From NCBI RefSeq assembly GCF_008180155.1, contig NZ_VSZS01000054.1, forward strand, positions 1 through 64,000: a stretch of DNA of 64,000 nucleotides, given 5' to 3'. Of this stretch, positions 1 through 15,598 are shown one piece after another. A program made the position numbers and the translations under genes. Under the pieces are notes generated by a model. It made no database searches, had not been told where the DNA came from, and saw only the letters and a program-made list of their open reading frames with translations. Within the stretch, counting starts at the first letter, position 1, and every line of letters begins with the position of its first letter. Source of the DNA: Neoaquamicrobium microcysteis. GTDB lineage: Bacteria; Pseudomonadota; Alphaproteobacteria; Rhizobiales; Rhizobiaceae.

Positions 1-113
1 TGATGTCGGTGACGCTGTCGACCGACCATCGCGCCGTCGACGGCGCACTCGGCGCCGAATTGCTCGCGGCGTTCAAAAAGACCGTCGAAAACCCGATGTC
101 GATGCTGGTCTGA
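1..113 (+). CDS. pdhC: Pyruvate dehydrogenase E2 subunit, C-terminal end only
   Basis: Only the last 36 residues lie in the window; the gene begins upstream. The tail carries DHRAVDG, the active-site motif of 2-oxo acid dehydrogenase acyltransferases, in which the His and Asp take part in transfer of the acetyl group from lipoamide to CoA. The ending ENPMSMLV is typical of alphaproteobacterial pyruvate E2 proteins. An acetoin or branched-chain E2 cannot be excluded from so short a piece. The usual downstream partner, lipoamide dehydrogenase, does not follow here. Confidence 0.75.
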
Positions 114-182
114 TCGCCGCATCTTGCCGTCAGTGGATGCCGGCTGCATGATGATGGCGGCTGCGTTTTACAGGAGGCCATG

Positions 183-551
183 ATGCCCGACTTCGCACCC
201 CCGGACATGCGCGCGCTGATAGGCAAGGTCATCAAGGCCTCGCCGTCCGACATCAGGTTCGTGGCGCAGCGCCTGCACGACCACGCGTTCGAGCCGCGCA
301 TGTCGCCCGAAGAGACGCGCGCCTTTGCCCGTGAACTTGGTCATGAAAACCTCGACGCATTGTGTGCCGCTGTCGGCCTGCCGCCGCATGTCGCCGAGCG
401 CTGGGAGCGGTTCGGCCTTTCGGCAGAGATGAAGCAGGTGTTCACGCTGATCGCGGATCAGCGTCGCAGGCTTGTGGAAGCCGTCGAGGAGTTCGAGACG
501 ATGACGCATGTCGGCATCGACGATTTCCTGCGCGAGCGTGGGCTGCTCTGA
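183..551 (+). CDS. Hypothetical protein, 122 aa
   Basis: A short soluble protein I do not recognise, rich in charged residues and probably mostly helical, with no signal peptide or membrane segment. Two adjacent ATG codons lie at 180 and 183. An AGGAGG at 172-177 stands only 2 bases before the first but 5 before the second, so 183 is preferred. It lies 69 bases after the pdhC stop on the same strand and could be read through from it. It converges with the SorC regulator gene, with only 3 bases between the two stops. Confidence 0.6.
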   Translation: MPDFAPPDMRALIGKVIKASPSDIRFVAQRLHDHAFEPRMSPEETRAFARELGHENLDALCAAVGLPPHVAERWERFGLSAEMKQVFTLIADQRRRLVEAVEEFETMTHVGIDDFLRERGLL

Positions 552-554
552 GGA

Positions 555-1514: not shown

Positions 1515-1604
1515 GTTCAGGCTCCTCTTCCCTTGCAGCGAACCATTCGTAGGATGCCACCCGACCTGTCAACCCGAAAGGCGATGATGCGCCGGCTCAT
1601 GAAG

Positions 1605-1638
1605 TGTTCATTTGTATTTGACATCGAACAAATGAACA
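1605..1638. promoter_or_regulatory. Inverted repeat, candidate SorC operator
   Basis: Two perfect 11-base arms, TGTTCATTTGT (1605-1615) and ACAAATGAACA (1628-1638), separated by 12 bases. The repeat encloses a TTGACA -35 element, so bound protein would cover the promoter. Its position between the SorC gene and the ABC operon makes it the probable binding site of that regulator. Confidence 0.65.
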
Positions 1639-1646
1639 TATTTTAT
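1618..1646 (+). promoter_or_regulatory. Sigma-70-type promoter of the ABC operon
   Basis: A consensus -35 TTGACA at 1618-1623, a 17-base spacer, and TTTTAT at 1641-1646 as -10 (or TATTTT at 1639-1644 with a 15-base spacer). It reads toward the substrate-binding protein gene at 1754 and overlaps the inverted repeat at 1605-1638. Confidence 0.5.
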
Positions 1647-1753
1647 GGTAGCCAGCGCATTTGTCATCCAGCGGTCATGTGCGCCATGCAGGGAGGAGCT
1701 GGCAGGCCGTCTGTCTCAAGAGGCAGGCCACCAGTACGCAACAGGAGGTTCCT

Positions 1754-2740
1754 ATGAAATCGCTTTCCATTAAGCTGGCCGCAAGCCAGCTCGCGCTTGC
1801 ACTTTCGCTCTCGCTCGGCGCCGCTCATGCGGAGACGCTGATGCTTTACACCTCGCAGCCGGAAGCCGACGCGACCAAGACCGTGGAGGCCTTCAAGGAG
1901 GCCAATCCCGGCGTGGACGTCCAGATCTTCCGTTCCGGCACGAGCGACCTGATGACCAAGCTTGCGGCCGAGTTCGCCGCCGGCGCGCCGCAGCCCGACG
2001 TGCTTCTCATCGCCGACGCCGTCACGATGGAGTTGCTCAAGAAGGACGACCGCCTGCTCGCCTATCCCGAGGCCGATGTGGCCGGGCTGGCCGAAGGCTC
2101 CTACGACGCCGACCGGACCTATTTCGGCTCGAAGCTGATCACCACGGGCATCGCCTACAACACGGCCGCCGCCGAGAAGCCGGAGACCTGGAACGACCTT
2201 CTCAAGCCGGAATACAAGGATGGCGTGGTGCTGCCGAGCCCGCTCTATTCGGGTGCTGCGGCGTTCATGATGTCGGGCTTCTCGATGAACCCGGATATCG
2301 GCTGGGAGTTCTACACCGGCCTCAAGGACAACAACGCCATCACCGTGCAGGGCAACGGCGCGGTGCTGCGCTCGGTCGCCAACGGCGAGAAGCCCTACGG
2401 CATCCTCGTCGACTTCATGGCCATGAACGCGAAGGCGCAGGGCTCGCCGGTGGAGTTCGTGTTCCCGCCCGAAGGCGTGCCTGCCGTGACCGAGCCGGTG
2501 GCGATCATGTCCACCGCCAAGAATGTCGAGGGTGCCAAGCGCTTCGTCGACTTCATTCTGTCGGAAGACGGCCAGAAGCTCGCGCTCGACATGGGCTACC
2601 TGCCCGCCGATGCCTCCGTCGGCCGGCCGGCGTGGTTGCCTGAAGGTGTCGAGGTCACGGTGATGCCTGTGGACATCCAGGGTGTTGCCGAGCGTATCGA
2701 CGCCGACAAGGAGAAGTTCTCCGCACTGTTCGGCGGCTAA
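1754..2740 (+). CDS. Ferric-type ABC transporter substrate-binding protein (FbpA/AfuA-like)
   Basis: A 328-residue periplasmic solute-binding protein. The start at 1754 follows AGGAGG with good spacing and opens on a signal peptide ending LGAAHA. The mature part begins ETLMLYTSQPEADATK and contains TGIAYNTAA and VVLPSPLYSGAAA, typical of the FbpA/AfuA/PhnS group. It is the first gene of an operon with a fused permease (2780) and an ATPase (4471). Family members bind ferric iron, phosphonates or, in AfuA, hexose phosphates. The SorC regulator and downstream phosphatase-type enzymes favour a phosphorylated organic substrate over iron; this is inference. Confidence 0.85.
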   Translation: MKSLSIKLAASQLALALSLSLGAAHAETLMLYTSQPEADATKTVEAFKEANPGVDVQIFRSGTSDLMTKLAAEFAAGAPQPDVLLIADAVTMELLKKDDRLLAYPEADVAGLAEGSYDADRTYFGSKLITTGIAYNTAAAEKPETWNDLLKPEYKDGVVLPSPLYSGAAAFMMSGFSMNPDIGWEFYTGLKDNNAITVQGNGAVLRSVANGEKPYGILVDFMAMNAKAQGSPVEFVFPPEGVPAVTEPVAIMSTAKNVEGAKRFVDFILSEDGQKLALDMGYLPADASVGRPAWLPEGVEVTVMPVDIQGVAERIDADKEKFSALFGG

Positions 2741-2779
2741 GGACAGTCGGGCCGTAGACAAGCAGGCGGGACAGGCATC

Positions 2780-4483
2780 ATGGCGCAAGCTTTGAAGGAA
2801 TGGCGGGGCCAGGAGATGGCCCTGGCGGTGGCGGTCGCTGCGATCATCGCCGTCCTGTCCCTCCTGCCGATGGTGCGGCTGGTCTGGGAAATCGTCGCGC
2901 CGGGCGGCACGTTCTCGCTCTCTGCGATCAATGCGGGGCTTGCCAATCCGGCGACCCTGACGGCCACGATCAACACCCTCGTGGTCGGCATCGGCGGCAC
3001 GGTGGTGGCGGTCGTCGCCGGCACCGTCGTGGCGCTCGTGGTCGCGCTTACCGACATGCGCGGCCGCAACGCCTTCGTGCTGTGCTTCGTCATGCCGCTG
3101 ATGATCGCGCCGCAGGTGACGGCGCTGGCGTGGCTGCAGCTTTTCGGCCCGGCCAGCCCGTTTCTCAAGCTCATAGGCATGGCGCCGCCGCTGGGAAGCC
3201 GCAATCCGCTATATTCGCCGGAAGGCATCATCCTCCTGCTGGGCATCCAGTATGCTCCGCTGGTGTTCCTTTTGGTACGGGCGGGCCTGCGCAAGCTGCC
3301 GCGCGAGCTGGTTGAGGCGGCGCGGGCCGGCGGCGCGGGCTGGTTCACCGTGCTGCGCACCGTCGTCCTGCCGCTGATGACGCCCTCCATCGTTGCCGCC
3401 GCGGCGCTGGCTTTCGTATCGTCGGTCGGCAATTTCGGCATTCCCGCCTTCCTGGGCATCCCGGCAAACTATCTCGTGCTGCCGACGCTGATCTACCAGC
3501 GGCTGGCCGGCGGCGGGCCTGCAGTGCTGGGCGAGGTGGCGTTCCTGTCGGTGCTGATCGGCGTCATCGCCATGGCCGGCATTCTGGCGCAGGAGGCGAT
3601 GAGCCGTCGGCGCGACTATCGCATCAGCTCGACCTCGCTCCCGGCCGATCCCTATCCACTCGGCCGCTTTCGCCTGCCGCTGGAGATCGCGATGTGGGTG
3701 CTGATCGCGGGCATTCTCGTGCTGCCGCTGTTTGGGCTCATGCTCACTTCGCTGGTCCCCGGCCACGGCATTCCGCTGTCGTCGCAGACCGCTACGCTGG
3801 CCAACTACAAGTTCGTGCTGTTCGAGCATGCCGGCTCGCGGCGTGCCTTCGGCAACAGCATGATGCTGGCGCTCGGGGCAGCGATCTTCGCCGTGCTCGC
3901 CGCGCTGCCGGTGGCCTATCTCGTCGCATGGGGCAGGCAGAGATGGGTGCGGTTCGCCAATCTGATGATCGAGCTGCCCTACGCGCTGCCCGGCGTCGTG
4001 CTCGCGATCGCGTCGCTGCTGCTGTTCCTGCGGCCGATCCCGCTCACCGGCATCCACATCTACAACACGGTATGGATCATCCTCTACGCCTACCTCGCCC
4101 GCTTCCTGGTGCTGGCGCTGCGCCCGACGGTGAGCGGATATCACCAGGTCGATCGCGCTTTGGAAGAGGCCGCGCAGGTTACCGGTGCGGGCCTGTTCAT
4201 GCGGATGCGCACCGTCATCTTTCCGCTGGTCGCGCCGGCCGCGATGGCGGGCGGACTGCTGATCTTCATGACCGCGCTGAGCGAGCTGACGGTGTCGGCG
4301 CTGCTCTGGTCGTCGGGGTCTGAAACCATCGGCGTCGTCATGTTCTCGTTCGAGCAGGGCGGCGATTCGAAATATGCGGCGGCGCTGTCGATCATCACGG
4401 TCTCCATCACCTTCGGGCTGATGCTTGCGACCAACATGTTCGCGCGCCACCTGCCCAACGGAGTGCTCCCATGGCGGGATTGA
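2780..4483 (+). CDS. ABC transporter permease, fused two-domain type (FbpB-like)
   Basis: A 567-residue inner-membrane protein with about twelve hydrophobic segments arranged as two permease domains. Each half carries an EAA loop for docking the ATPase: LVEAARAGGAGWFTVLRTVVLP near residue 180 and LEEAAQVTGAGLFMRMRTVIFP near residue 465. Such fusion is normal for the ferric-type family. It starts 39 bases after the binding-protein gene and overlaps the ATPase gene by 13 bases, so the three are translated from one mRNA. Confidence 0.88.
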   Translation: MAQALKEWRGQEMALAVAVAAIIAVLSLLPMVRLVWEIVAPGGTFSLSAINAGLANPATLTATINTLVVGIGGTVVAVVAGTVVALVVALTDMRGRNAFVLCFVMPLMIAPQVTALAWLQLFGPASPFLKLIGMAPPLGSRNPLYSPEGIILLLGIQYAPLVFLLVRAGLRKLPRELVEAARAGGAGWFTVLRTVVLPLMTPSIVAAAALAFVSSVGNFGIPAFLGIPANYLVLPTLIYQRLAGGGPAVLGEVAFLSVLIGVIAMAGILAQEAMSRRRDYRISSTSLPADPYPLGRFRLPLEIAMWVLIAGILVLPLFGLMLTSLVPGHGIPLSSQTATLANYKFVLFEHAGSRRAFGNSMMLALGAAIFAVLAALPVAYLVAWGRQRWVRFANLMIELPYALPGVVLAIASLLLFLRPIPLTGIHIYNTVWIILYAYLARFLVLALRPTVSGYHQVDRALEEAAQVTGAGLFMRMRTVIFPLVAPAAMAGGLLIFMTALSELTVSALLWSSGSETIGVVMFSFEQGGDSKYAAALSIITVSITFGLMLATNMFARHLPNGVLPWRD

Positions 4484-5550
4484 CCATGCGCGGCGTCACC
4501 AAGACGTTCGGCGATTTCGATGCTGTGAAGGACGTGACGCTGGAGGTCGCCGACGGCGAGTTCCTGGCGGTGCTCGGCCCGTCGGGGTGCGGCAAGACCA
4601 CGCTGCTGCGGCTGGTGGCCGGCTTCGAGGGCGTCACCGGCGGCGAAATCGGCATCGGCGAAAGGGTGGTGTCGAACGCCGACGGCAACGTGCCGCCGGA
4701 AAAACGCCGCGTCGGTATCGTCTTCCAAAACTACGCGCTTTGGCCGCATATGACGGTGGCCGAGAATGTCGGCTACGCGCTCAAGGTCGCCAAGGTCGAA
4801 AAAACCGAGGCGAAGCGCAAGGTCGATGAGGCGCTCGCGCTGGTCAACCTTCAGGGCTTCGGCGACCGCTATCCGGCCAAGTTGTCCGGCGGGCAGCGTC
4901 AGCGCGTGGCGCTGGCGCGATGTCTCGTCGCCGCGCCTTCGCTGGTTCTGTTCGACGAGCCGCTGGCCAATCTCGACGTGCATCTGCGCGCGTCGATGGA
5001 GGACGAGTTCGCTGCCTTCCACAAGCGCACCGGCACCACCATCGTCTACATCACCCACGATCAGGCCGAGGCGATGGCGCTGGCCGACCGCATCGCGGTC
5101 ATGGATCAAGGGCGGCTGGTTCAGCTCGACGCGCCGCGCAAGCTCTACAGCGAACCGGCAACGGAGATGGTCGCTTCCTTCATCGCGCAGGGCATCGTGC
5201 TGCCGGCAAAAGTTCTGTCTGGCGAGGAGGGCGGCCATTGCCGCGTGAGCGTGCTGGGACAGGAGGCCGTGGTGCGCTGCCGGCCGGGCGAGCAGCCGCG
5301 TGAGGCGGCCAAGATTTGCTGCCGTGCGCAGGATATAGAGATGGCCGCCGCCGGGGAGCCGGGGCTCGACGGGACGGTTATCCGCGCCGTCTACAAGGGT
5401 GGATCGACGCGCATCGAGTTTGCGCCTGCCGCCGACCCCACCGTCCACCTGCATTTCGAGCTGCCGGATCCGAACCCGTTTCAGGAGGGTGCACAGGCGC
5501 GCATCCGCATCCGCTCCGGCTGGCTGATCCCGTCGGGGGCTGCGGCCTGA
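4471..5550 (+). CDS. ABC transporter ATP-binding protein (FbpC-like)
   Basis: A 359-residue ATPase energising the importer at 1754-4483. Visible motifs are Walker A GPSGCGKTT near residue 37, the signature LSGGQRQRVALAR near 137, Walker B VLFDEP near 157, and the H-loop His in YITHDQAEAMALADRI. About 120 residues after the nucleotide-binding domain form a TOBE-type regulatory tail, as in FbpC, PotA and MalK homologues. It begins inside the end of the permease gene and ends two bases before the hydrolase gene at 5553, so all lie in one operon. Confidence 0.88.
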   Translation: MAGLTMRGVTKTFGDFDAVKDVTLEVADGEFLAVLGPSGCGKTTLLRLVAGFEGVTGGEIGIGERVVSNADGNVPPEKRRVGIVFQNYALWPHMTVAENVGYALKVAKVEKTEAKRKVDEALALVNLQGFGDRYPAKLSGGQRQRVALARCLVAAPSLVLFDEPLANLDVHLRASMEDEFAAFHKRTGTTIVYITHDQAEAMALADRIAVMDQGRLVQLDAPRKLYSEPATEMVASFIAQGIVLPAKVLSGEEGGHCRVSVLGQEAVVRCRPGEQPREAAKICCRAQDIEMAAAGEPGLDGTVIRAVYKGGSTRIEFAPAADPTVHLHFELPDPNPFQEGAQARIRIRSGWLIPSGAAA

Positions 5551-5552
5551 CC

Positions 5553-6701
5553 ATGGAGATTGGGCTGTTCGGCGGTTTTGGCGAAAAGGGGCGCACCAGC
5601 ATCGGCGTGAAAAGCGGCGAAACCCGTCTCATGCTGGATGCCGGCATCAAGGTGGGTGCGGCTCTGGCGGACTATCACCCGAAGCTGCTGTGGCCCGCCG
5701 GCGAGATCGATGCGCTGCTGCTGACCCACGCCCATGAAGACCACGCGGGCGCGCTCTCGTGGCTGCTGGCTCAGGGCTTTCGTGGCCGCATCCTTATGAC
5801 GGCCGAAACGAGATCGGAAACGCCGGCGACGCTGGCCGGATACGCCGACGCAGCCGATCTCGCGGCCTGCCCTTTCCCGCGGGACAGGATCGAGATTTTC
5901 GAGCCGGGCGAAACGCTTTCCATCGGCGCCATGCGGATCGAGACGGGCCGGTCGGGCCACGTCGTTGGCGGGGTATGGTTCGCCGTCGATGACGGCTCGC
6001 GCCGCTTCGTCCATTGTGGTGATGTCGTGCCCGACAGCGGCGTCTTCGTCATGGACACGCTGCCTGAATGCGACCTGATCGCGCTCGATGCATCATATGG
6101 CGCCGATCCGATTTCGGGCGTCGAGCGCGCGCGCGCCATCGCCGCATGGGTGGATGCCCGCCCGGCAGGGTGCCTGCTGCCAACGCCGCTTTCCGGCAGG
6201 TCGCTCGAACTGATGGCGGCGCTTTCGGGCCCGTTCGCCATCCATACCAGCATGCGCGAGGCGCTCGCAGTACAGATCGATGCGGGAAGCGCGCTTGCGC
6301 CCGGCATGGCGGAGCGGCTTCACGCACGGCTTTCCGAAGCGCGCGACTGGTCCGACGGGGAAAGCCTGCCGGCCCTGCCGCTGCTGGCGGATGACGGCAT
6401 GGGCAAGGCCGGGCCGTCGGCGAGGCTGTTGCCGCGCGCCGCCGATGCCGGGTTTCCCATCCTGTTGAGCGGGCATCTGCCGGAAGGCTCGCCGGGCCAG
6501 TTGCTGCATGCTGCCGGCCGGGCGGACTGGATACGGATGCCGACCCATCCGACGCTGCCGGGAAACGTCGCGATATGGGAGGGGGCCGGCCGCCCCGCCG
6601 CGCTCGGACATTCGTGCGTGTCGGCCGAGCTCGTTCCGCTCGGCACGCATATTCCCGCCCTTCGCCTCGATAGCCGTACCGGCGATGTCCTGACCATTTG
6701 A
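5553..6701 (+). CDS. Metallo-beta-lactamase-fold hydrolase
   Basis: A 382-residue cytoplasmic protein. The start at 5553 lies two bases after the ATPase stop; the reading frame is open further upstream but only overlaps the ATPase gene. The N-terminal GGFGEKGRTSIGV is reminiscent of RNase J and related phosphodiesterases, and HAHEDH at residues 59-64 is the di-metal motif. Further metal-ligand candidates are the His in SGHVVGG and the Asp in HCGDVV. The beta-CASP motifs of RNase J were not recognised. Placement between an importer and SurE suggests action on the imported compound, perhaps a phosphodiester; the substrate is unknown. Confidence 0.8.
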   Translation: MEIGLFGGFGEKGRTSIGVKSGETRLMLDAGIKVGAALADYHPKLLWPAGEIDALLLTHAHEDHAGALSWLLAQGFRGRILMTAETRSETPATLAGYADAADLAACPFPRDRIEIFEPGETLSIGAMRIETGRSGHVVGGVWFAVDDGSRRFVHCGDVVPDSGVFVMDTLPECDLIALDASYGADPISGVERARAIAAWVDARPAGCLLPTPLSGRSLELMAALSGPFAIHTSMREALAVQIDAGSALAPGMAERLHARLSEARDWSDGESLPALPLLADDGMGKAGPSARLLPRAADAGFPILLSGHLPEGSPGQLLHAAGRADWIRMPTHPTLPGNVAIWEGAGRPAALGHSCVSAELVPLGTHIPALRLDSRTGDVLTI

Positions 6702-6713
6702 AGAGGAAGCGCG

Positions 6714-7457
6714 ATGAGGATTCTCGTCTGCAACGACGATGGCATCGAGGCTCCGGGCCTCGCATTTCTGGCCAAGACCGCCGCGCGCCTGAGCGACGAT
6801 GTATGGGTGGTCGCACCTGAGGTGAAGCACACGGCCGCGTCAGGCTCCATCACCATCGCCAAGCCGATCACGATGCGCAAGCTGGGCGAACAGCGCTATT
6901 CCTGTTCCGGCAAACCGGCAGATTGCATCGTCGCGTCCATGACGTGGCTGTTCGAAGGCGGCAAGAAGCCGGATCTGGTCATTGCAGGTGTCAACGACGG
7001 CCGCAACGTGGCCGAAGATCTCGCCTATTCCGGCACGCTGGCGATTGCCCGCGAGGCGTCTTTCTGGGGCGTGCCCTCCATCGGCTTTTCACGGGTCAAG
7101 AACCCGCAGATCGGCAATGACGATCATGAGTGGCTGGCGCGGCTGATCGGTACTTTGTTCGAGGCGCGGGCGGAGTGGGCCCTCGACGGACACTATCTTA
7201 GCGTCAACCTGCCCGACGCGTTGCCCGCTCAGGTCCGCCAGCCCCGCATCGGCCGGGACAAGATCGGCAGCCGTGCGGAGGTGGTGGAAAGCGATGGCGA
7301 CAGCACCGTCATCATCATACCGCGCGGTCGGCCCCACACCACCAAGGACGGCGACGAGAACAGCGCCATAGATGCCGGCTGCGTCACCATCAACCGGCTG
7401 AACTGGTTCGGCGGCGCGCCGCTCGGCGATGATCTTGTCGCGCGGCTTCAGGCGTAG
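6714..7457 (+). CDS. surE: SurE-like 5'/3'-nucleotidase (phosphomonoesterase)
   Basis: A 247-residue protein of SurE length. The N-terminus MRILVCNDDGIEAPG carries the metal-binding DD pair, and GVNDGRNVAEDLAYSGT matches the conserved SurE active-site loop except that Asp replaces the usual Ala in the N-A-G-x-N segment. SurE enzymes remove phosphate from nucleotides and short polyphosphates. It sits 12 bases after the hydrolase gene, last in the ABC operon. It is probably not the housekeeping surE, which normally lies beside pcm or serS, so a specialised phosphatase in a catabolic operon is likelier. Its end overlaps the convergent HAD gene by 10 bases. Confidence 0.85.
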   Translation: MRILVCNDDGIEAPGLAFLAKTAARLSDDVWVVAPEVKHTAASGSITIAKPITMRKLGEQRYSCSGKPADCIVASMTWLFEGGKKPDLVIAGVNDGRNVAEDLAYSGTLAIAREASFWGVPSIGFSRVKNPQIGNDDHEWLARLIGTLFEARAEWALDGHYLSVNLPDALPAQVRQPRIGRDKIGSRAEVVESDGDSTVIIIPRGRPHTTKDGDENSAIDAGCVTINRLNWFGGAPLGDDLVARLQA

Positions 7458-8119
7458 GCGCGCACCCGTTCGATCTCGCGCGACACGGCGTTCCAATCGG
7501 CACACGCCACAGCCGCGCCATGCTCGATCAGCCGTTCCGCATGGCCGGGATAGGTGTGGCCGCCGCCTGTAAAGCCGATGGCGACCATCCCCGCGGCGAC
7601 CGCCCCTTGCACGCCGAAGGGCGAATCTTCGATCACGACGCAGCCCGAAGGCTCGGCACCCATGCGCTCTGCGGCAAACAGGAAGATGTCGGGAGCGGGC
7701 TTGCCGCGCGCTACCATCGAAGACGAGAATATCGCGTCCCCGAAGTGATGCGCCAGTCTCGTCACGGCGAGGCTGTGGTGGATACGTTCCATCGACGAGG
7801 ACGACGCGACGCAGCGCGCCGCAGTCAGGTCGTCGAGGAACGCAGCGATCCCGTCGGTCGGCTCGAGCCGTTCCGTGAAGAGCTGCCTGGTTTCGAGCCA
7901 GATATCGTCCTGCCTGTCGTCCGATAGCAGGTGACCGGTAAGGCCGTGTATCTTCGCGATGATGTCGGCCTGCTTCATGCCGATGCACTGGGCGATGATG
8001 TCAGGCCCCACGCCCGCCATGCCGTGCCGCTCGTAGACGCGCTCGTAGGCCAGCGCGGCGAGAGGCTCGCTGTCGACGAGCACGCCGTCGCAGTCGAAAA
8101 TGATGAGGGATGGCTTCAA
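7448..8119 (-). CDS. HAD-family phosphatase, beta-phosphoglucomutase-like
   Basis: A 223-residue haloacid dehalogenase-superfamily enzyme. Motif I is DCDGVLVDSE (catalytic Asp at residues 9 and 11), motif II lies around VASSSSM, motif III is the Lys in GKPAPD, and motif IV is VIEDSPFG. The cap domain between motifs I and II is of the beta-phosphoglucomutase/sugar phosphatase type. It starts with TTG at 8119, preceded by GGAG at a seven-base distance. It lies 15 bases after the unknown gene 8135-8776 and is surely co-transcribed with it. A role on a hexitol phosphate made by the neighbouring PTS is possible but unproved. Confidence 0.85.
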   Translation of the reverse strand: MKPSLIIFDCDGVLVDSEPLAALAYERVYERHGMAGVGPDIIAQCIGMKQADIIAKIHGLTGHLLSDDRQDDIWLETRQLFTERLEPTDGIAAFLDDLTAARCVASSSSMERIHHSLAVTRLAHHFGDAIFSSSMVARGKPAPDIFLFAAERMGAEPSGCVVIEDSPFGVQGAVAAGMVAIGFTGGGHTYPGHAERLIEHGAAVACADWNAVSREIERVRAYA

Positions 8120-8134
8120 GCTGGAACTCCGGAT

Positions 8135-8776
8135 TTACGCGCGGTAGGCAAGCGCCGCATTGTCGCCGGGCACGGCCAGTGCCTCTCGCATCGCCTTGCG
8201 CGACTGCGCCATGTCCGGCACGACCCAGTTGGGCTCGCCGCCGAGGAAGCGGTCGAGGAAGGCGACCGCGGTCGCCGGCATCTCGGTGGCGTTCTCGCGG
8301 TAGGACCACCATAGCCGCAGGTCGTCGACGCACGCGTCGAGAGCGGGGGCGTGACCGAACTCCTGCTCGTGGATCGCCGCGATCGCCGAGATGCAATAGT
8401 TCGTGTAAAGGAAGCCCTCCGGCCAGAAGCGCGCGATCTCAAGAAGAGCCGGGTCACCGGATGCCGGTGCGTCGGCATCCTCGCCCGCATAGTGCGCCGG
8501 ATTCTGTCGAATCAGCTCCCGCAGAACCAGGCCGGCCGCGAAGACGATGAAGTCGCCGCGGTTCACGCGCGCGAAATCCTTCTGGCTTTCCACGGTCTCC
8601 ACCCAGTCGAGGAACACGCGCGTCAGCCGCGTCTCGTCGATCTCGTAGCGCAGGCCGCAGGCCGCCGTGACGGCCTTTGCGTTGGCGCGAAAGGTGGCGC
8701 GGAACCAGCGCAGCCGGCGCAGGCGATGGCGCAGGTCGGGCATGGTCGCCAGTTCGTCCTTGAACCGCAGGTCCAT
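8135..8776 (-). CDS. Hypothetical protein, 213 aa, divergent from the glucitol PTS
   Basis: I do not recognise the family. It is soluble with no signal peptide; the N-terminus is very basic (RHRLRRLRWFRATFRANAK), and the rest is helical with many aromatic residues (LWWSYREN, FWPEGFLYTNY). The start at 8776 begins MDLRFKDEL; the open frame reaches 8839 but the extra residues look non-coding. It is the first gene of a two-gene unit with the HAD phosphatase and shares about 140 bases of divergent control region with gutM, which suggests a link to PTS substrate metabolism. Confidence 0.6.
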   Translation of the reverse strand: MDLRFKDELATMPDLRHRLRRLRWFRATFRANAKAVTAACGLRYEIDETRLTRVFLDWVETVESQKDFARVNRGDFIVFAAGLVLRELIRQNPAHYAGEDADAPASGDPALLEIARFWPEGFLYTNYCISAIAAIHEQEFGHAPALDACVDDLRLWWSYRENATEMPATAVAFLDRFLGGEPNWVVPDMAQSRKAMREALAVPGDNAALAYRA

Positions 8777-8840
8777 TTGCTTCTCGGTCCTCCCGCTGCA
8801 GCATGACGCTGTCGGGTCTATACTGCAAGGATAATACATA

Positions 8841-8878
8841 TTGACACTACTGGAAACAAATGTTCTCTAAATGACACT
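8841..8878 (+). promoter_or_regulatory. Candidate promoter and repeat region before gutM
   Basis: TTGACA at 8841-8846 is followed after 17 bases by TCTCTA (8864-8869), a plausible sigma-70 promoter for the PTS operon. TGACACT occurs twice, at 8842-8848 and 8872-8878, exactly 30 bases apart. ACAAATG (8856-8862) resembles a half-site of the SorC repeat at 1605-1638. The regulator is not known; either SorC protein or GutM is a candidate. Confidence 0.4.
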
Positions 8879-8919
8879 TGCCGGCTGGAGGTTGCCGGTG
8901 TGTGACGGGAGGAGGCCGG

Positions 8920-9357
8920 ATGGCGATCTGGCAATGGGGATTGCTGCTCTTGGCGGCCGTCTGGGCGCTTCAGGCTCTGGGCGTCTGGATGCAGATGCAG
9001 CATTATTCCGGCGTCTTCAAAGGCATCACCGAAAAATACAAGGACGGGTTCGTCGGCGCGGGCAATTTCCGCGGCCGGTTCCAAAAGGGCACGATCGCGC
9101 TGGTCGTGGTCACGCCAGACCTCGTCGTGCGCCGGCTGCTTCTGATGAGCGGGCGCAGCGTGTTCACCAAGTTCAGGCGGCATGAGGAATTCGAGGGCAT
9201 GCCCCTCGATCGGCTGCGCTCCCAGCCGGCGATCATGGGAGACAAGGAGCCCGGTGTGACGGAGGCCGTCAAGCGGGCAATCGAGCAGATCGACCGTGCA
9301 CGGGCGGAGCCTGACAGGCAGCCCGGACTGTCGGGCATCAGCGCCACGCGCGCTTAA
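8920..9357 (+). CDS. gutM: GutM-type glucitol operon activator
   Basis: A 145-residue protein with one N-terminal membrane segment (WGLLLLAAVWALQALGVWM) followed by HYSGVFKGI, GRGRF-like residues and a small cytoplasmic domain, the layout of GutM/SrlM. In enterobacteria this protein helps activate the glucitol operon. The start at 8920 follows GGAGG; the frame is open upstream to 8878 but lacks a better site. It heads the PTS operon, with srlA 50 bases downstream, and is somewhat longer at the C-terminus than E. coli GutM. Confidence 0.8.
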   Translation: MAIWQWGLLLLAAVWALQALGVWMQMQHYSGVFKGITEKYKDGFVGAGNFRGRFQKGTIALVVVTPDLVVRRLLLMSGRSVFTKFRRHEEFEGMPLDRLRSQPAIMGDKEPGVTEAVKRAIEQIDRARAEPDRQPGLSGISATRA

Positions 9358-9407
9358 CGTGCCGAAGCCGTCGGGGGTCGCCGGCAGGCACTGAGGAGGG
9401 AGGAAGA

Positions 9408-10172
9408 ATGTCGGTAGTTTCTATGTTGGCGCAGCATGCCGACATGGCCGTCCAGAACCTGCATGTCGCAGGCTCGATGGTCACGGATGTTGCTTTGCAC
9501 GGCAGGCTCGCGCTCGAGCATGCCTCGAACGATTTCGTCGTCCTCGCGCAGGCCGCGACCGACGGCGACATCACGGTCGACGAGTTCCGCGAGAGGCTGG
9601 ACAACGTCGTGCAGGAAGAACAGCTCGGCTGGCTGACTGCCGCGGGCAAATACTTCATCGGTATCTTCCAGGAAGGCGGCAAGGTCTTCGCCGGCTTCGT
9701 CACCGGCATCATCCCGACGCTGGTGGTGCTGATGACGGCCTTCTACGCCGTCACCGAACTGGTGGGCGAGCAGCGCGTCCACGGGCTTGCACGCGGCGCC
9801 GGCCGCATCGCGCTTACCCGCTACACGGTGCTTCCGGTGCTGGCGGTCTTCTTCCTCACCAACCCGATGGCCTACACCTTCGGCTCGTTCCTTGAGGAAA
9901 AGCACAAGCCGGCCTTCTACGACGCGGCCGTGTCCTACGTGCATCCGCCGCTGGGTCTCTTCCCGCATGTCAATCCGGGCGAGTACTTCGTGTGGGGCGG
10001 CATCCTCGTGGCGCTGCTCGAACTCGAGCGCAACGGTTCCGTGGCGTCGGGCTATCACATCCAGGTGGCCATCTGGTACGCCCTCGTCGGTCTGGTCGTC
10101 ATCCTTCTCAAGGGCATCCTGACGGAGCGCATCACAGCCTTCATGGCGCGCCGCCAGGGCGTCGAGCTCTAG
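9408..10172 (+). CDS. srlA: PTS glucitol/sorbitol permease subunit IIC
   Basis: A 254-residue membrane protein of the Gut family. The N-terminal half is amphipathic, followed by hydrophobic segments (FVTGIIPTLVVLMTAFYAVTEL; LPVLAVFFLTNPMAYTFGSFLEEKHKPAFYDAAVSYVHPPLGLFPHVNPGEYFVWGGI, quoted here as family landmarks near residues 105-205). Together with SrlE it forms the membrane channel. A strong GGAGG precedes the start, and srlE follows after 16 bases. Glucitol-type PTS permeases are uncommon in alphaproteobacteria, where most PTS parts are regulatory. Confidence 0.9.
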   Translation: MSVVSMLAQHADMAVQNLHVAGSMVTDVALHGRLALEHASNDFVVLAQAATDGDITVDEFRERLDNVVQEEQLGWLTAAGKYFIGIFQEGGKVFAGFVTGIIPTLVVLMTAFYAVTELVGEQRVHGLARGAGRIALTRYTVLPVLAVFFLTNPMAYTFGSFLEEKHKPAFYDAAVSYVHPPLGLFPHVNPGEYFVWGGILVALLELERNGSVASGYHIQVAIWYALVGLVVILLKGILTERITAFMARRQGVEL

Positions 10173-10188
10173 GCCGGGAGGGAAGATC

Positions 10189-11190
10189 ATGATCACCAAG
10201 ACCTACAAGGCCGTACGCATCTCCCGTGGCTCCGGCGGCTGGGGCGGCCCGCTCGTCATCGAGCCGACCGCGCAGCGCAACAAGATCGTCTCCGTCACCG
10301 GCGGCGGCATTCACCCGGTCGCCCAGCACATCGCCAACCTGACCGGCGGCGAAGCTGTGGACGGCTTCCGCGCCCCGCCCATCGAAAGCGAGATGGCGGT
10401 TGTGGTGGTGGATTGCGGCGGCACCGCACGGTGCGGCGTCTATCCGCGCAAGCGCATCCCGACCGTCAACCTCACGCCCGTGGGGCAGGCCGGTCCGCTG
10501 GCCCAGTTCATCACGGAGGACATCTACGTTTCGGGCGTGAAGCCGGAGAACGTCGTCCTGGCTGACGGCAGCGAGCCGGTAACGGCCGCGGGGGGAGCGC
10601 AGGCAATGGAAGCCACCACCCCGGCGGCGTCCGCGCCGCCTGTCGAGAACGACGGCGGTATCGTCGGGCTCATCAGCTCGGTGGGCCGCGTCATGGGCCG
10701 GGTGGTCGGCATCTTCTTCAATGCCGGCCGCCGCACGATCGATCAGGTGGTGCGCAACGTGCTGCCGTTCATGGCCTTCGTGACCATGCTCATCGGCCTC
10801 ATTCTCTACACCGGCATCGGCGATCTTCTCGCCCAGCCGATGGGGCCGCTGGCCAACAACATCGTCGGCCTGCTGATCATTTCGGCCATCTGCGGCCTGC
10901 CGTTCCTCTCGCCCATACTCGGGCCGGGCGCGGTGATCGCACAGGTCATCGGTGTGGCCATCATAGGTCCGCAGATAGCCAACGGCACGATTTCGCCGGC
11001 CATGGCCCTGCCGGCGCTGTTCGCCTACAACACGCAGGTGGGCTGCGACTTCGTGCCGGTGGGTCTCGCACTCGGCGAGGCCAAGCCCAAGACCATCGAG
11101 ATCGGCGTGCCGGCGGTGCTCATCAGCCGCCAGATCATGGGCCCGGTCTCGGTTCTGATCGCCTGGGCGGTCAGCCTGGTCGTGCTCTAA
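10189..11190 (+). CDS. srlE: PTS glucitol/sorbitol subunit IIB (with C-terminal membrane domain)
   Basis: A 333-residue protein. The N-terminal IIB domain begins KAVRISRGSGGWGGPL and carries VVDCGGTARCGVYP near residue 75, containing the Cys residues of the family active site, then RIPTVNL. A low-complexity linker rich in Ala, Thr and Pro near residues 130-155 leads to five or six membrane segments. IIB takes phosphate from IIA and passes it to the sugar during transport. The gene lies between srlA and srlB with short gaps, as in the enterobacterial srlAEB order. Confidence 0.9.
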   Translation: MITKTYKAVRISRGSGGWGGPLVIEPTAQRNKIVSVTGGGIHPVAQHIANLTGGEAVDGFRAPPIESEMAVVVVDCGGTARCGVYPRKRIPTVNLTPVGQAGPLAQFITEDIYVSGVKPENVVLADGSEPVTAAGGAQAMEATTPAASAPPVENDGGIVGLISSVGRVMGRVVGIFFNAGRRTIDQVVRNVLPFMAFVTMLIGLILYTGIGDLLAQPMGPLANNIVGLLIISAICGLPFLSPILGPGAVIAQVIGVAIIGPQIANGTISPAMALPALFAYNTQVGCDFVPVGLALGEAKPKTIEIGVPAVLISRQIMGPVSVLIAWAVSLVVL

Positions 11191-11215
11191 ACTGAAAACA
11201 AGGAGGTTCGCCAAT

Positions 11216-11596
11216 ATGACGGTTCATCTGAAGACACGGGTCACCGCTGTTGGACCGGAAGTGGCGGACCTCGCCGAAGGCGGCGTGGTCATCCTGTTTG
11301 CCGATGGCTCGCCGCCCGAGCTCGCCGAAGTGTCTGTGCTGCACAGAGGCGAGCAGGAACCCAGCGACGACGCGCCGCAGGCCGGCGCGTCGATCGCCAT
11401 CGGCGGTGTGTCGGCAACCATCACGGCGATCGGCGACACCGCATGGAACAAGGTGCGCGAGATCGGCCATGTGGTGATCTCGTTCAACGGCGCCTCGCAG
11501 GCCGAGCGACCGGGCGAGATTTGCGCGACGGAGGTCGACACGCAGGCGCTGGTGGATGCGCTCGCCGTCGACGCCGTCATCACCATCGCCGCATAA
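11216..11596 (+). CDS. srlB: PTS glucitol/sorbitol subunit IIA
   Basis: A 126-residue soluble protein matching IIA-Gut in length. His43 in VSVLHRGE corresponds to the phosphorylated His of the family, and IGHVVISFNG matches the conserved C-terminal strand. It receives phosphate from HPr and hands it to SrlE. AAGGAGG lies just upstream of the start. The HPr-EI fusion gene follows after 41 bases, so all the PTS proteins needed for transport are made from one operon. Confidence 0.88.
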   Translation: MTVHLKTRVTAVGPEVADLAEGGVVILFADGSPPELAEVSVLHRGEQEPSDDAPQAGASIAIGGVSATITAIGDTAWNKVREIGHVVISFNGASQAERPGEICATEVDTQALVDALAVDAVITIAA

Positions 11597-11637
11597 GCCT
11601 CTAGCCAGGCGGCGCAAATTTGCTTCAGGATACTGCC

Positions 11638-13611
11638 ATGGAACGCTCCACTATCGTGCGAGTGCATGAAGGGCTTCACGCCCGCCCCGCGACACGCTTC
11701 GTCAAGCTCGCCAAGAGCTTCGAGTGCGACATCGAGATCGTGCGCGACGGCAAGGCGGTGAGCGCCAAGAGCCCGGTGAAGCTGATGCTGCTGGGCGTGA
11801 AGGAAAACCAGGAAGTCACAGTTCGTGCCGAAGGAGCCGATTCCATCGAGGCCGTCGAAGCGCTTATCGGCTATCTGGAAAACCCGCTTTCTGGTCTCGA
11901 CGACGAGCCGCAGGACGACGGCGCGCCTCAAGCCGAGCCCGTCGCCGCACCAGTGCCGGTGGCGCCCGCGTCTCTCGTCCAAACCCATCACGGCCTGCGC
12001 GGCGTTGCCGCCAGCGAAGGCGTGGCGATGGGGCCGGCGTTTCCCTATTTCCCCGCCGAGATAAATACCGATGGCCGCACTCTGGCACCCGACGAAACCG
12101 GTGCGGAGGTCGAGCGTTTGCGGCGCGCGGTGGCAACGGTCCAGCAGCGCATGGACGCGACGCTGGCCGACAGGTCGCTCGCGGAGGGCGACCGCGGCAT
12201 CGTTGCCGCGCTGCGCGACATAGCGGCCGACGAGGATCTGATCGGCGAGGCCGAGCGGACGGTGGCGGGCGGGCTGGACGCCGTCTCGGCGGTCATGGCC
12301 GCATCGGCGCAGGTGGCGGATGAGTTCGCCGGAATGGACGATCCCTATCTCAACGCCCGCGCCGACGATATCCGCGCCGTCGGCCGGCAGCTCTGCTTGG
12401 CGCTGCTCGGCGAGGAAGAGGCGGGGCTCGACGCGCTGCCCGAAGGCGCGATCCTCATTGCGGAAGACATCGGTGCGTGGGATCTGGCGCGCGCGCCGCT
12501 GAAGCGCATCGGCGGCATCGTGTGCGGCCATGGCGGCGCTACCTCTCACGTCGCCATCATCGCGCGCTCGCACGGCATTCCGGCCGTGCTCGGGCTTGGC
12601 GGTCAGGTCGATGCGCTGCGCGAGATCGGCGCGATTGCACTGGATGGATCGACCGGACACGTGCACCCCGATCCCGACGATGCGATCCGAGCCGATTTCG
12701 AGGCCCGGATCACCGCCGCCGGCAAGGAGCGGGAGGCGCTGACGGCCTATCGCGACATGGAGCCCCGCCGCGCCGACGGCACGGTGATCGAGGTCGCGGC
12801 CAATATCGGCTCGCTGGAAGAAATCGACGCGGCGCGCGAGGCGGGCGCCATGGGCGTCGGGCTGTTCCGCACCGAATTGCTATTCATGCGGCACATGCAC
12901 CTGCCGTCGGAGGACATGCAGGCCGAAACCTATGCCGCGCTGGCACAGGCTTTCGCGCCCCATCCGGTCATCGTGCGCACGCTGGACATCGGCGGCGACA
13001 AGCCGATTGCGGGGGTAGAGTTTCCGCAGGAGGAAAACCCGTTCCTGGGCTGGCGCGGCATTCGCATGTGCCTCGACCGGCCGGACATCTTCAAGCGCCA
13101 GCTCCGCGCGCTTCTGCGCGCGGCAGTCCACGGCAACATCAAGGTGATGCTGCCGATGGTTTCGGAACTGGACGAGGTTCGCCGCACGAGGGCACTGATC
13201 GAGGAATGCAAGGGCGAACTGGCGACGGAAGGAAAGTCGCATGCCGATTTCCCGCTCGGCGTCATGGTGGAAACGCCGGCTGCCGTATTCATCGCACGCG
13301 AACTGGCGAAGGAAGTCGCCTTCTTCTCGATCGGCACCAACGACCTGACGCAGTATGTGATGGCGGCCGACCGGCTCAATCCGGTGGTCGCCGGGCTCAA
13401 CCATGTCGAGAACCCCGCCGTCATGGGCGCGATCGAGATGACGGCCAGAGCTGGCGTCGAGGCCGGCATCATGGTCGGCATGTGCGGTGAGGCGGCAGGC
13501 CGACCGGACCTCATCCCCGCCTTCATCCGCATGGGCCTCACCGAACTGAGCATGAGCCCCGCGTCGATCCAGCGGGCCAAGAAGTGCATTGCCGAGATGA
13601 GCGCCGGATAA
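11638..13611 (+). CDS. ptsP: PTS HPr-enzyme I fusion (phosphoenolpyruvate-protein phosphotransferase)
   Basis: A 657-residue fusion. Residues 1-90 form an HPr domain with His14 in GLHARPATR; a Pro/Ala-rich linker follows, then a full enzyme I. His304 in GGATSHVAII is the phospho-histidine, and GLFRTELLFM, DIGGDKP and GTNDLTQYVMAADR form the PEP-binding barrel. The ATG at 11638 has AGGA seven bases upstream; a TTG at 11620 is a weaker alternative. No GAF domain is present, so this is not the nitrogen-PTS EI. It probably serves the adjacent glucitol PTS. The name ptsP is often used for such proteins; fruB-like FPr names would also be defensible. Confidence 0.88.
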   Translation: MERSTIVRVHEGLHARPATRFVKLAKSFECDIEIVRDGKAVSAKSPVKLMLLGVKENQEVTVRAEGADSIEAVEALIGYLENPLSGLDDEPQDDGAPQAEPVAAPVPVAPASLVQTHHGLRGVAASEGVAMGPAFPYFPAEINTDGRTLAPDETGAEVERLRRAVATVQQRMDATLADRSLAEGDRGIVAALRDIAADEDLIGEAERTVAGGLDAVSAVMAASAQVADEFAGMDDPYLNARADDIRAVGRQLCLALLGEEEAGLDALPEGAILIAEDIGAWDLARAPLKRIGGIVCGHGGATSHVAIIARSHGIPAVLGLGGQVDALREIGAIALDGSTGHVHPDPDDAIRADFEARITAAGKEREALTAYRDMEPRRADGTVIEVAANIGSLEEIDAAREAGAMGVGLFRTELLFMRHMHLPSEDMQAETYAALAQAFAPHPVIVRTLDIGGDKPIAGVEFPQEENPFLGWRGIRMCLDRPDIFKRQLRALLRAAVHGNIKVMLPMVSELDEVRRTRALIEECKGELATEGKSHADFPLGVMVETPAAVFIARELAKEVAFFSIGTNDLTQYVMAADRLNPVVAGLNHVENPAVMGAIEMTARAGVEAGIMVGMCGEAAGRPDLIPAFIRMGLTELSMSPASIQRAKKCIAEMSAG

Positions 13612-13620
13612 GGCCTCGCG

Positions 13621-14418
13621 TTAGGGCAGGTGCGCCAGCAGGGTTGCGAAGATACGGGTGAGTTCTGCCCGTGCGTCCGCCCCTGCACAGGCGTCAGCGA
13701 TACGGTCGAGCCGTGCTTCCGTGGCCAGAACCGTCAGGTCCAGGATATCGGGCTCGGGCGACGCATCCGGCTCAACGGTTGCGAACCCGCAGGCAAGCAC
13801 GACCGGCACCAGACACAGAAGCTCCAGCGTTCGTGCGTCCCTTGAAGACAGGGCCGCATCATCGAGCCGGATCGCGCGATGGTCGAGCATGGTCAGCAGC
13901 AGTGCCGCGCTGAATGCGGAGGCGGCCTCGATACGTGCCGCCCAGTCTGTCGCGCCGGCGATCCCGGCTATCAGGTCACCGTGGCGGGTACGCATCGTGG
14001 CATGGATGGCTGCAAGCTCGCTCTCGTGGATGCGCGCATCGGTGACGCGCCGGTTGGCCAGCACCTCGCGTGCCAGATAGTAGAGATCGCGCCGGTACGC
14101 GCGTGCGCCTTCGCGCGCCTCGCCCAGCGGAAAGTATGTCGCAAAGCCTTGCACCGCGCCGGCGGGTGGCGCAGACCTGCGCACGGGTGTAAGTCTCTCT
14201 GCCAGTGTCATCGCATCATCGAACGCGCTGACCGCATGGCCCACCAGGTGGTCTACCGCGGCGGGGGCGAATGGAGGTCGCGGCAGCGGAAGTATATCGC
14301 CCAGCCGCGCCGAAGGCGTGGCCGATCCGTCGTGCCGGTGCTGGCGGATGACGTGGCGGACATCGCGCAGCCGGTCCTTCAGCGCGACCCGAACCTCTTC
14401 GGAAATCTCTCGCAGCAT
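13621..14418 (-). CDS. Hypothetical protein, 265 aa
   Basis: Unrecognised. A soluble protein rich in Ala, Arg and Asp and mostly helical by composition. The start at 14418 begins MLREISEEVRVALKDRL, and the frame stays open upstream only because it opposes the regulator gene. It converges with the HPr-EI gene (9 bases between stops) and is divergent from the SorC regulator at 14588. A modest clue is the Arg-rich YRRDLYYLAREVLANRRVTDARIHESELAAIHA stretch around residues 115-150, described here only as a helical region. No function is proposed. Confidence 0.6.
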   Translation of the reverse strand: MLREISEEVRVALKDRLRDVRHVIRQHRHDGSATPSARLGDILPLPRPPFAPAAVDHLVGHAVSAFDDAMTLAERLTPVRRSAPPAGAVQGFATYFPLGEAREGARAYRRDLYYLAREVLANRRVTDARIHESELAAIHATMRTRHGDLIAGIAGATDWAARIEAASAFSAALLLTMLDHRAIRLDDAALSSRDARTLELLCLVPVVLACGFATVEPDASPEPDILDLTVLATEARLDRIADACAGADARAELTRIFATLLAHLP

Positions 14419-14587
14419 GATGGCGCTCCATCCCTTGTTTCTTTGCCGGCGAACGGCCTTCTCGCGTCCGCGCTCTTGTCTCAAGGGTGCGTCGCGGAGC
14501 CGGGATCGGTCAAGAGTCGATATTGCGTTCACATACAGAATCGTTGACGGTTGCGCCGCGCGAGGGGGAGCAGGGAAGGTACAGCTA

Positions 14588-15598
14588 TTGGCTAGGCGGC
14601 CGCGCAGGAACGTTGAAAGCGGAGACGCCGAAGCTGCGCTTCCGGCGGGCGACAGCCGGGCAGACCGGCTGCGGGTCCGTGCGGCGTGGATGTATTTCAT
14701 CGAGCAGATGACCCAGAACGAAATCGCCGACGTGCTTGGCGTCGGGCGGGTCAGCGTGGTGCGCATGCTGGCGGAAGCGCGTGCCCGCAACGAGGTGAAG
14801 ATAGGCATCGAGAGCGAGCTGGCGGAAACGGTGCGTCTGGAGCGGGCTCTGGAGCGCACCTTCGGCCTTCAGCAGGCGCTGATCGCTCCCTTGTCGTCGC
14901 CGGACGCCGATCCCATCCCCGCCATAAGCGCCAGAACCGGCAGCTATCTTTCCGATGCGATGCGGTCCGGCATGCGTGTGGGCGTGGGCTGGGGGCGTAC
15001 GCTGTTCAGCACGCTGCAATTCATCGGCGCCAAGCAGCTCAACGACTTTCAGGTCATTTCGCTGCTTGGCGGTGTCGGCGCGGCCAGGCGGTACAATCCA
15101 GCCGAGTTCGCATGGCGGTTCGCCCAGATATTCCAGGGTGAAGGTTACCTGATCCCGACGCCTGCCGTGGTCGACAGCATCGAGACGAAGATTGCGCTTG
15201 TGGAGCGCTGCGGGCTCAAGGACACGTTCGACATGACGAACGACCTCGACGCCGTGCTGCTCAGCGTGGGCGGGATCGCATCGGCCACGACCTTCTATCG
15301 CGGTGGGTTCCTCAAGGAGGAGGATCGCGAGGCGCTGGTGCGGCGAGGCGCCGTGGGCGACTTGCTGTTCCATTTCTACGACCGCGAGGGTGTTCTGGTC
15401 GATCATCCGGTCAACCAGCTGGTGATGTCGGTGGACGTGGATCGGCTTCGCAAGGCGCCTATCCGCATCCTGACTTCCGGCGGCGAGGACAAGATAGACG
15501 CGCTGCTTGGCGCGATGAGCCTGATCGCGCCGACGATCTTCATAACGGACGAGAACAGCGCTCGGCGCATGCTGGATGCGCGCGGCGTCGTCGCCTGA
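14588..15598 (+). CDS. SorC/DeoR-type sugar-binding transcriptional regulator
   Basis: A 336-residue SorC-family protein. TTG at 14588 is chosen because AGGGAAGG lies about eight bases upstream; the open frame extends to 14318 but that part overlaps the divergent gene. The HTH (MYFIEQMTQNEIADVLGVG) is followed by the effector domain with GVGWGRTLFSTL, SLLGGVG, LLSVGGIASATT and EDKIDALLGAM. It lies just beyond the glucitol PTS operon and is the natural candidate to control it, as SorC proteins sense phosphorylated sugars. It resembles, but is clearly not identical to, the regulator at 555-1514. Confidence 0.85.
   Translation: MARRPRRNVESGDAEAALPAGDSRADRLRVRAAWMYFIEQMTQNEIADVLGVGRVSVVRMLAEARARNEVKIGIESELAETVRLERALERTFGLQQALIAPLSSPDADPIPAISARTGSYLSDAMRSGMRVGVGWGRTLFSTLQFIGAKQLNDFQVISLLGGVGAARRYNPAEFAWRFAQIFQGEGYLIPTPAVVDSIETKIALVERCGLKDTFDMTNDLDAVLLSVGGIASATTFYRGGFLKEEDREALVRRGAVGDLLFHFYDREGVLVDHPVNQLVMSVDVDRLRKAPIRILTSGGEDKIDALLGAMSLIAPTIFITDENSARRMLDARGVVA

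Follow-up and report, generated by a model that had tools for sequence, protein, structure and literature searches.

A Gut-family phosphotransferase block linked to type II DXP reductoisomerase in Neoaquamicrobium microcysteis: a candidate uptake arm for 2-C-methyl-D-erythritol catabolism

The glucitol phosphotransferase system (PTS) of enterobacteria and Firmicutes (srlAEB with gutM) provides the first comparison for a five-gene block at positions 8920-13611 of the DNA studied here, a stretch of 64,000 nucleotides of Neoaquamicrobium microcysteis (hereafter the window) that forms the start of one contig (C33) of a 4.84-Mb draft genome, 99.99% complete. The block and the glucitol PTS share the same EIIA, EIIB(C), EIIC and GutM families, and SrlE is about 50% identical to the enterobacterial copies. 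The block differs, however, in its own HPr-EI fusion, its SorC regulator, an extension of about 75 residues on SrlA and its linkage to genes for a type II 1-deoxy-D-xylulose 5-phosphate (DXP) reductoisomerase (DXR-II) and for the E1 and E2 components of a lipoyl-dependent dehydrogenase complex, and none of five relatives has an SDR-family dehydrogenase annotated next to it.

Four other described systems share parts of this gene set. The Brucella DXR-II/DRL enzyme, a synthase of 2-C-methyl-D-erythritol 4-phosphate (MEP) known from the structures PDB 3upl and 3upy, resembles the linked DXR-II in full-length homology (seen for locus L117) and in the five substrate-site or signature residues tested, but the linked copy sits with E1/E2 in a module that looks built for transport and catabolism. 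Acetoin dehydrogenase (acoABC) has the E1-alpha nearer to that of the module (47% identity, against 39% for the PdhA type), although the E1-alpha of the module stands in a separate clade, adjoins DXR-II and has DXP as its proposed substrate. Rhizobial operons with an ATP-binding cassette (ABC) transporter and a sugar kinase (Sinorhizobium meliloti Rm41, L205; A. tumefaciens CFBP7129, L206; Rhizobium N324, L208) contain the same DXR-II/E1/E2 genes and mostly a SorC regulator, whereas the block has a PTS in place of these unrelated import and phosphorylation proteins. Lastly, the nitrogen PTS (PtsP, NPr, EIIA-Ntr) has EI and HPr domain families in common with the block, whose EI differs in lacking a GAF domain, in being fused to HPr and in being encoded with membrane EII components. 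We favour, with moderate confidence, the view that the block imports 2-C-methyl-D-erythritol (ME), or a close 2-C-methyl-tetritol, as the uptake arm of a pathway that breaks this compound down.

The five-gene block and its phosphorelay

The Gut-family set (EIIA, EIIB/C, EIIC and GutM) is contiguous in the window by Pfam and NCBIfam matches, and the five genes are tightly spaced on one strand:

8920..9357, +, gutM (Pfam GutM, 1.1e-20), with its ATG at 8920
9408..10172, +, srlA, EIIC of the Gut family (Pfam EII-GUT, 1.7e-62; above the NCBIfam SrlA cut-off), with the N-terminal extension of about 75 residues
10189..11190, +, srlE, EIIB(C) of the Gut family (NCBIfam SrlE, 444.9 bits; cut-off 400)
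11216..11596, +, srlB, EIIA of the Gut family (Pfam PTSIIA_gutA, 3.4e-27)
11638..13611, +, HPr-EI fusion of 657 residues without GAF (four Pfam domains), with its ATG at 11638

The start ATG of gutM is preceded by GGGAGGAGG. SrlE matches both EIIBC-GUT_N (3.5e-70) and the C-terminal domain (4.2e-40), and the fusion protein carries the HPr, PEP-utilisers_N, mobile and PEP-utilizers_C domains, GAF being absent. These assignments and their coordinates bear out the original prediction, made from the sequence alone, of gutM-srlA-srlE-srlB followed by a GAF-less HPr-EI. The extension of SrlA (window 9408-9630) also occurs in L121-L124 and L126; alphaproteobacterial SrlA proteins measure 249-256 residues in five annotated records, compared with 173-181 in Listeria and two Priestia records.

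HPr (His), EI (His) and SrlE (Cys) have kept intact phosphorylation motifs. Over 100 loci, among which some genes are represented twice, SrlE shows the motif CGGTxRCG, which we take to mark its active site, in all 100; the HxRPA motif of HPr is found in 97 of 99 (exceptions L080 and L115); and the SH motif of EI satisfies a strict pattern in 92 of 99, with TSH visible in six of the seven failures, the seventh being L115. In related genera, homologues of SrlE are flanked by the same genes, and this synteny places the block far beyond chance.

The phosphorelay chain looks self-contained, because the genome holds just one other EI, which carries GAF, one HPr domain besides that of the fusion, and no match to the permease families PTS_EIIC (PF02378) or EIIC-GAT (PF03611). 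PEP-utilizers_C is found in three of its proteins: the block fusion, the 756-residue EI with GAF and a 927-residue frame. The claim of a separate transport relay beside a nitrogen-type EI therefore holds. Another PTS drawing on the EI and HPr of the block, such as a nearby fructose PTS, is rejected for this genome on the lack of PF02378 and PF03611 matches; in some relatives a galactitol-type EII adjoins the block, and sharing is possible there, which bears on one of the refuting conditions set by the original prediction.

Galactitol-type EII genes lie close to the block in Ochrobactrum/Brucella haematophila, Rhizobium K1/93 and Pseudoroseomonas. At five loci (L063, L070, L083, L122 and L124) they stand near the module with one EI match in view each, and may share its HPr-EI. 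At L111 a gatB match is accompanied by a second EI match.

Linkage to DXR-II and E1/E2, and exchange of the uptake arm

The DXR-II and E1/E2 partners are invisible from the window alone because they lie across a contig break. The window opens inside an E2, of which it contains the final 36 codons, and on another contig of the genome (C34) the gene order from DXR-II (C34:150775-152091) onwards is E1-alpha, E1-beta and an E2 cut short by the contig end, so that the set with the 5' part of E2 spans G000:C34:150775-154972. The two contigs most likely adjoin within E2, because by comparison with L117 about 130 E2 residues separate the end of C34 from the start of C33. The starts within the stretch fetched around this locus are as follows:

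L133 (the C34 locus): DXR-II at 6776, E1-alpha at 8104, E1-beta at 9138, E2 from 10140 to the contig end

Three draft genomes (L202, L203 and L133) break at the same E2 gene, perhaps owing to a stretch in common with the housekeeping E2.

In annotated plasmid relatives, the gene adjoining E1-alpha, E1-beta and E2 is named 'NAD(P)H-dependent oxidoreductase' or 'homoserine dehydrogenase'. Homology identifies its product as DXR-II, the enzyme that interconverts DXP and MEP: the L117 protein is a full-length match to Brucella 3upl/3upy (E 6e-218), the L200 protein has a DRL_cat domain and matches 3upl, and the N. microcysteis copy is 90% identical to that of L117 (DRL_cat 7e-68). Residues K191, K193, T229, H250 and R320 are kept in all 132 DXR-II rows compared, including that of N. 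microcysteis (some rows give the same gene twice). According to PMC3847144, the DLO relatives differ at two of these positions, 229 (Thr) and 250 (His), and four of them did not complement.

The linkage of PTS, DXR-II and E1/E2 genes is firm. DXR-II lies within 15 kb of SrlE on the same contig in 13 of the 20 SrlE-bearing genomes of the order. In G162 the DXR-II copy is truncated at a contig edge, in three genomes (G000, which is the present one, G209 and G248) the contig that carries DXR-II stops within E2, and in G248 the PTS contig begins just ahead of the HAD gene. Regardless of distance, DXR-II is present in 18 of these 20 genomes and in 60 of the 377 others (Fisher p 5e-12, uncorrected for kinship). 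In a plasmid collection, DXR-II lies no more than 14 kb from SrlE in every one of the 16 alphaproteobacterial records listed for SrlE, and among the 46 best-ranking records for Listeria DXR-II (identity at least 36.8%), SrlE lies within 14 kb in 24, which include Listeria, Enterococcus raffinosus, Ligilactobacillus salivarius and Priestia. L. salivarius has DXR-II in only three of 29 SrlE-bearing records.

The best argument that the PTS feeds a phosphorylated substrate to DXR-II comes from loci where another machine takes its place. Eight DXR-II rows without SrlE (L192-L195, L200, L205, L206 and L208, with L192/L193 and L200/L208 as near-identical pairs) have an ABC transporter and a kinase beside DXR-II-E1-E2. 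The kinase belongs to PfkB in L200 by domain match and in L206 by annotation, and the loci of S. meliloti Rm41 and CFBP7129 also carry lpdA and lipA. A SorC regulator is in view in seven of the eight, as is a first orphan protein family that also flanks the PTS. On the DXR-II tree, PTS and ABC rows are intermixed as near neighbours (L122 with PTS, L206 with ABC, L082 with PTS, L205 with ABC), and the PTS label changes ten times, at least seven of these being forced by well-supported branches; the count is approximate. Import and phosphorylation are all that these two unrelated machines have in common, and their replacement of one another makes it probable that the PTS supplies a phosphorylated substrate to DXR-II. 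The tree has 75 rows, Brucella included; excluded from it were matches of fewer than about 380 residues, loci that span less than 9 kb, most of the near-identical Mesorhizobium loci, and L134, L135, L202 and L203. Solo DXR-II copies account for 33 of its 74 labelled rows, two labels being limited by the stretch fetched: L133, from the present genome, is labelled as having E1 only despite the PTS across the break, and L210 (Priestia) as solo despite a PTS about 10 kb off.

E1/E2 genes stand beside DXR-II in most PTS-type and in all eight ABC-type loci, and we rejected the idea that they are a mere pyruvate dehydrogenase (PDH) duplicate. The housekeeping pdhA of the genome lies between eno and pdhB, scores 518.6 bits on the NCBIfam PDH E1-alpha model (cut-off 393.85) and is 40% identical to the module E1-alpha. 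The second, PdhA-type E1-alphas of the same genomes form their own clade (support 100/100), seen both in a first tree of 39 rows and in a second without L228 and L241 (overlong and long-branched) and L121 (a fragment). The module clade takes in the Priestia PTS-module and C. difficile plasmid sequences (support 96/90). Mean identity of 16 module E1-alpha rows is 47% to two aco-operon copies and 39% to 11 PdhA-type rows. Together with branch lengths, these identities suggest that the module E1-alpha is likely, though not proven, kin to acetoin dehydrogenase, an enzyme that applies thiamine-diphosphate and lipoyl chemistry to acyloins.

Candidate substrate and pathway

In the pathway that we propose, HPr-EI would take phosphate from phosphoenolpyruvate (PEP) and hand it on through SrlB and SrlE, so that ME would be imported and phosphorylated to MEP. 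DXR-II, run in reverse, would convert MEP to DXP, and the E1-alpha/E1-beta/E2 complex would cleave DXP to acetyl-CoA and D-glyceraldehyde 3-phosphate with formation of NADH. The SorC regulators would sense a phosphorylated intermediate. ME is the candidate substrate because it is the polyol that a PTS would convert to MEP, and DXP, like acetoin, is an acyloin. The choice of substrate, the reverse direction of DXR-II, the cleavage of DXP, its products and the ligand of the regulators are all inferred. A 2004 paper by Testa, Cornish and Poulter is said, by its title, to make the sorbitol PTS of Salmonella responsible for 2-C-methyl-D-erythritol transport. No paper linking DXR-II to a PTS was among the matches listed in the open-licence literature, which is not proof of absence.

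Several observations weigh against this pathway. DXR normally works towards MEP, and the equilibrium favours MEP. The best NCBIfam model for the module E1-alpha of N. microcysteis is PDH E1-alpha at 382.9 bits, below the cut-off; the two aco-operon E1-alphas score lower still on it (about 342 bits), the Priestia PTS-module copy passes it (396.7 bits), and the E1-alpha tree, being unrooted, shows module, aco-type and PdhA sequences as three separate groups. Loci of Listeria, Ligilactobacillus and E. raffinosus have DXR-II and a PTS with no E1/E2 in view, and must finish the pathway differently or do something else; the DXR-II/PTS locus of Ligilactobacillus L130, which has a fructose-6-phosphate aldolase and a transketolase, possibly uses these as another route to split DXP. 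Linkage is also incomplete. In G155 and G210 an E1-alpha lies within 12 kb of srlE and DXR-II elsewhere in the genome. G104 (L108) has only short DXR-II and E2 matches beside its PTS, as if the downstream pathway were decaying. In 41 of the 80 GTDB loci analysed (the best 80 of 213 related stretches), no DXR-II, E1 or E2 is found in the stretch fetched; the length of the fetch may explain these, and in N. microcysteis itself the three genes fall just beyond 10 kb of srlE, with ABC, MBL and SurE genes between. Finally, the DXR-II of this genome probably works in both directions and serves isoprenoid synthesis as well, because it is single and no match to the type I enzyme (DXR-I) was found in the genome (the control matched in 10 of 14 genomes).

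Three alternatives compete with ME catabolism. One, which we regard as unlikely, keeps the same enzymatic core and changes the substrate, to 1-deoxy-D-xylulose imported as DXP, to 2-C-methyl-threitol or to another branched tetritol. E1/E2 alone would be enough for DXP, and the galactitol-type EII near the module in some taxa hints at related substrates, but DXR-II would be superfluous in a module whose PTS delivers DXP, and full conservation of the five DXR-II signature residues likewise argues against it.

A second alternative is salvage, in which imported ME would become MEP for isoprenoids, DXR-II would give the normal flux and E1/E2 would be a neighbour with another task. That the sole DXR found in the genome is DXR-II fits salvage, as would the reported import of ME by the Salmonella sorbitol PTS (a title only). 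Salvage does not need E1/E2, yet these genes accompany DXR-II at most PTS-type and all ABC-type loci. Moreover, each of the eight sampled genomes of genus g3 has two DXR-II copies, one near module E1 genes or the PTS and the other about 65% identical to it, with no E1/E2 nearby in the two genomes inspected (L198 and L199). Mesorhizobium loti has two functional DXR-II paralogs, according to PMC3847144; these probably correspond to the module copy and the second copy of the g3 genomes. DXR-I was found in eight of 42 chosen genomes, including four of the five ABC-type genomes checked (G023, G300, G116 and G172); the fifth, G068, has no DXR-I and two DXR-II copies. Because of this DXR-I, DXR-II would be dispensable for isoprenoids in those four genomes, and salvage appears quite improbable. 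Beside the second DXR-II in L199 stands a gatB-like match (at about 10350, 70% identity), with no other EII match in view.

Sorbitol (or another hexitol), considered first as the substrate and suggested by SrlE and SrlA scores above the NCBIfam glucitol/sorbitol cut-offs and by Gut-type PTS with an adjoining SDR that resemble known sorbitol systems (Priestia megaterium L131, Ligilactobacillus L211), would require the DXR-II and E1/E2 linkage to be accidental or to serve another pathway, and we set it aside as improbable, since no sorbitol-6-phosphate dehydrogenase is annotated beside the PTS in five alphaproteobacterial records (L121-L124 and L126; gene table incomplete), no SDR is found by Pfam or NCBIfam among the window genes scanned (180-15598), the linkage to DXR-II/E1/E2 recurs in several families and that to DXR-II in two phyla, and L. 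salivarius strain S01 keeps an SrlE copy with SDR and an SrlE copy with DXR-II as separate loci. The glucitol or sorbitol function implied by the original prediction is thus not upheld.

Distribution, neighbouring genes and implications

The block is uncommon in the order and frequent in one corner of it. Of 397 species that sample the order, 20 have SrlE (PF03612), this genome included, and these 20 genomes represent six families; within the family it is present in 10 of the 21 members listed, and in all eight sampled genomes of genus g3. A class-wide sample of 385 genomes gave an SrlE match in the present genome only. The rarity first claimed for the block is hence correct for the order as a whole and fails close to N. 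microcysteis. The GTDB contig scan gave 213 related stretches, the best 80 of them retained, which come mainly from Mesorhizobium, with others from Nitratireductor, Ochrobactrum/Brucella, Aminobacter and their allies; the block is also found on plasmids of Pseudoroseomonas and Paracoccus.

In most relatives the PTS is flanked by an HAD phosphatase, two orphan proteins and a SorC regulator. The neighbours in the window are:

1..113, +, 3' end of E2 (dihydrolipoyl acyltransferase), 89% match to Aminobacter E2
180..551, +, conserved hypothetical protein after E2, 67% match to an Aminobacter protein; no Pfam match; also in Aminobacter L121 and L051
555..1514, -, SorC/DeoR-type sugar-phosphate regulator 1 (Pfam Sugar-bind, 5e-58; best NCBIfam models DeoR and LsrR, below cut-off)
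1661..5550, +, ABC transporter (binding protein, double permease, ATPase) by Pfam and synteny, a neighbour in many Mesorhizobium-type loci
7448..8119, -, HAD phosphatase (Pfam HAD_2, 1e-23), often adjoining the PTS by synteny
8135..8776, -, orphan protein family 1, by tblastn in PTS-type loci and seven of eight ABC-type loci
13621..14418, -, orphan protein family 2, with weak relatives in L122 and in the sole ABC-type locus tested, L205 (hidden Markov model (HMM) E 1e-13)
14606..15598 (start approximate), +, SorC-type regulator 2 (Pfam Sugar-bind, 2e-52), recurring with the module by synteny

Orphan family 1 also has an HMM match in the S. meliloti Rm41 locus (E 1.5e-55). Neither orphan family has a Pfam or NCBIfam match, and their predicted structures have no fold match at E<=0.001. 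At window 1661-7457, the genes for the binding protein, double permease and ATPase are joined by those for an MBL hydrolase and SurE; this group accompanies the PTS at many Mesorhizobium-type loci and stands on the opposite side of the PTS in Aminobacter. A tie of the ABC transporter at 1661..5550 to the pathway is unproven.

DXR-I and DXR-II are unrelated enzymes for one and the same step of isoprenoid synthesis, which is essential and a drug target. PMC3847144 raises the question of how DXR-II came to exist next to DXR-I, when redundancy of activities should not be favoured, and proposes gene dosage or fosmidomycin tolerance; it also describes an active DXR-II in Finegoldia magna, a species with no other gene for the MEP or mevalonate routes. 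A catabolic module with uptake by PTS or by ABC transporter and kinase would give a concrete and testable reason for DXR-II beside DXR-I. We tentatively suggest, at somewhat less than even confidence, that the genes form a complete catabolic route for ME, or perhaps another 2-C-methyl-tetritol, in which the MEP pathway is reversed at its committed step and DXP cleaved oxidatively, and that DXR-II is catabolic in origin and came to serve isoprenoid synthesis wherever DXR-I had been lost. If true, such an origin would explain the scattered distribution of DXR-II over bacteria. Plants and isoprene oxidation supply 2-C-methyl-tetritols, and 2-C-methylerythritol, a plant isoprenoid by-product, is most likely what this apparent sorbitol importer of a soil bacterium takes up. 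The pathway would then open a source of carbon to bacteria that live on plants or in soil, and would add a new reaction to those of the lipoyl dehydrogenase complexes.

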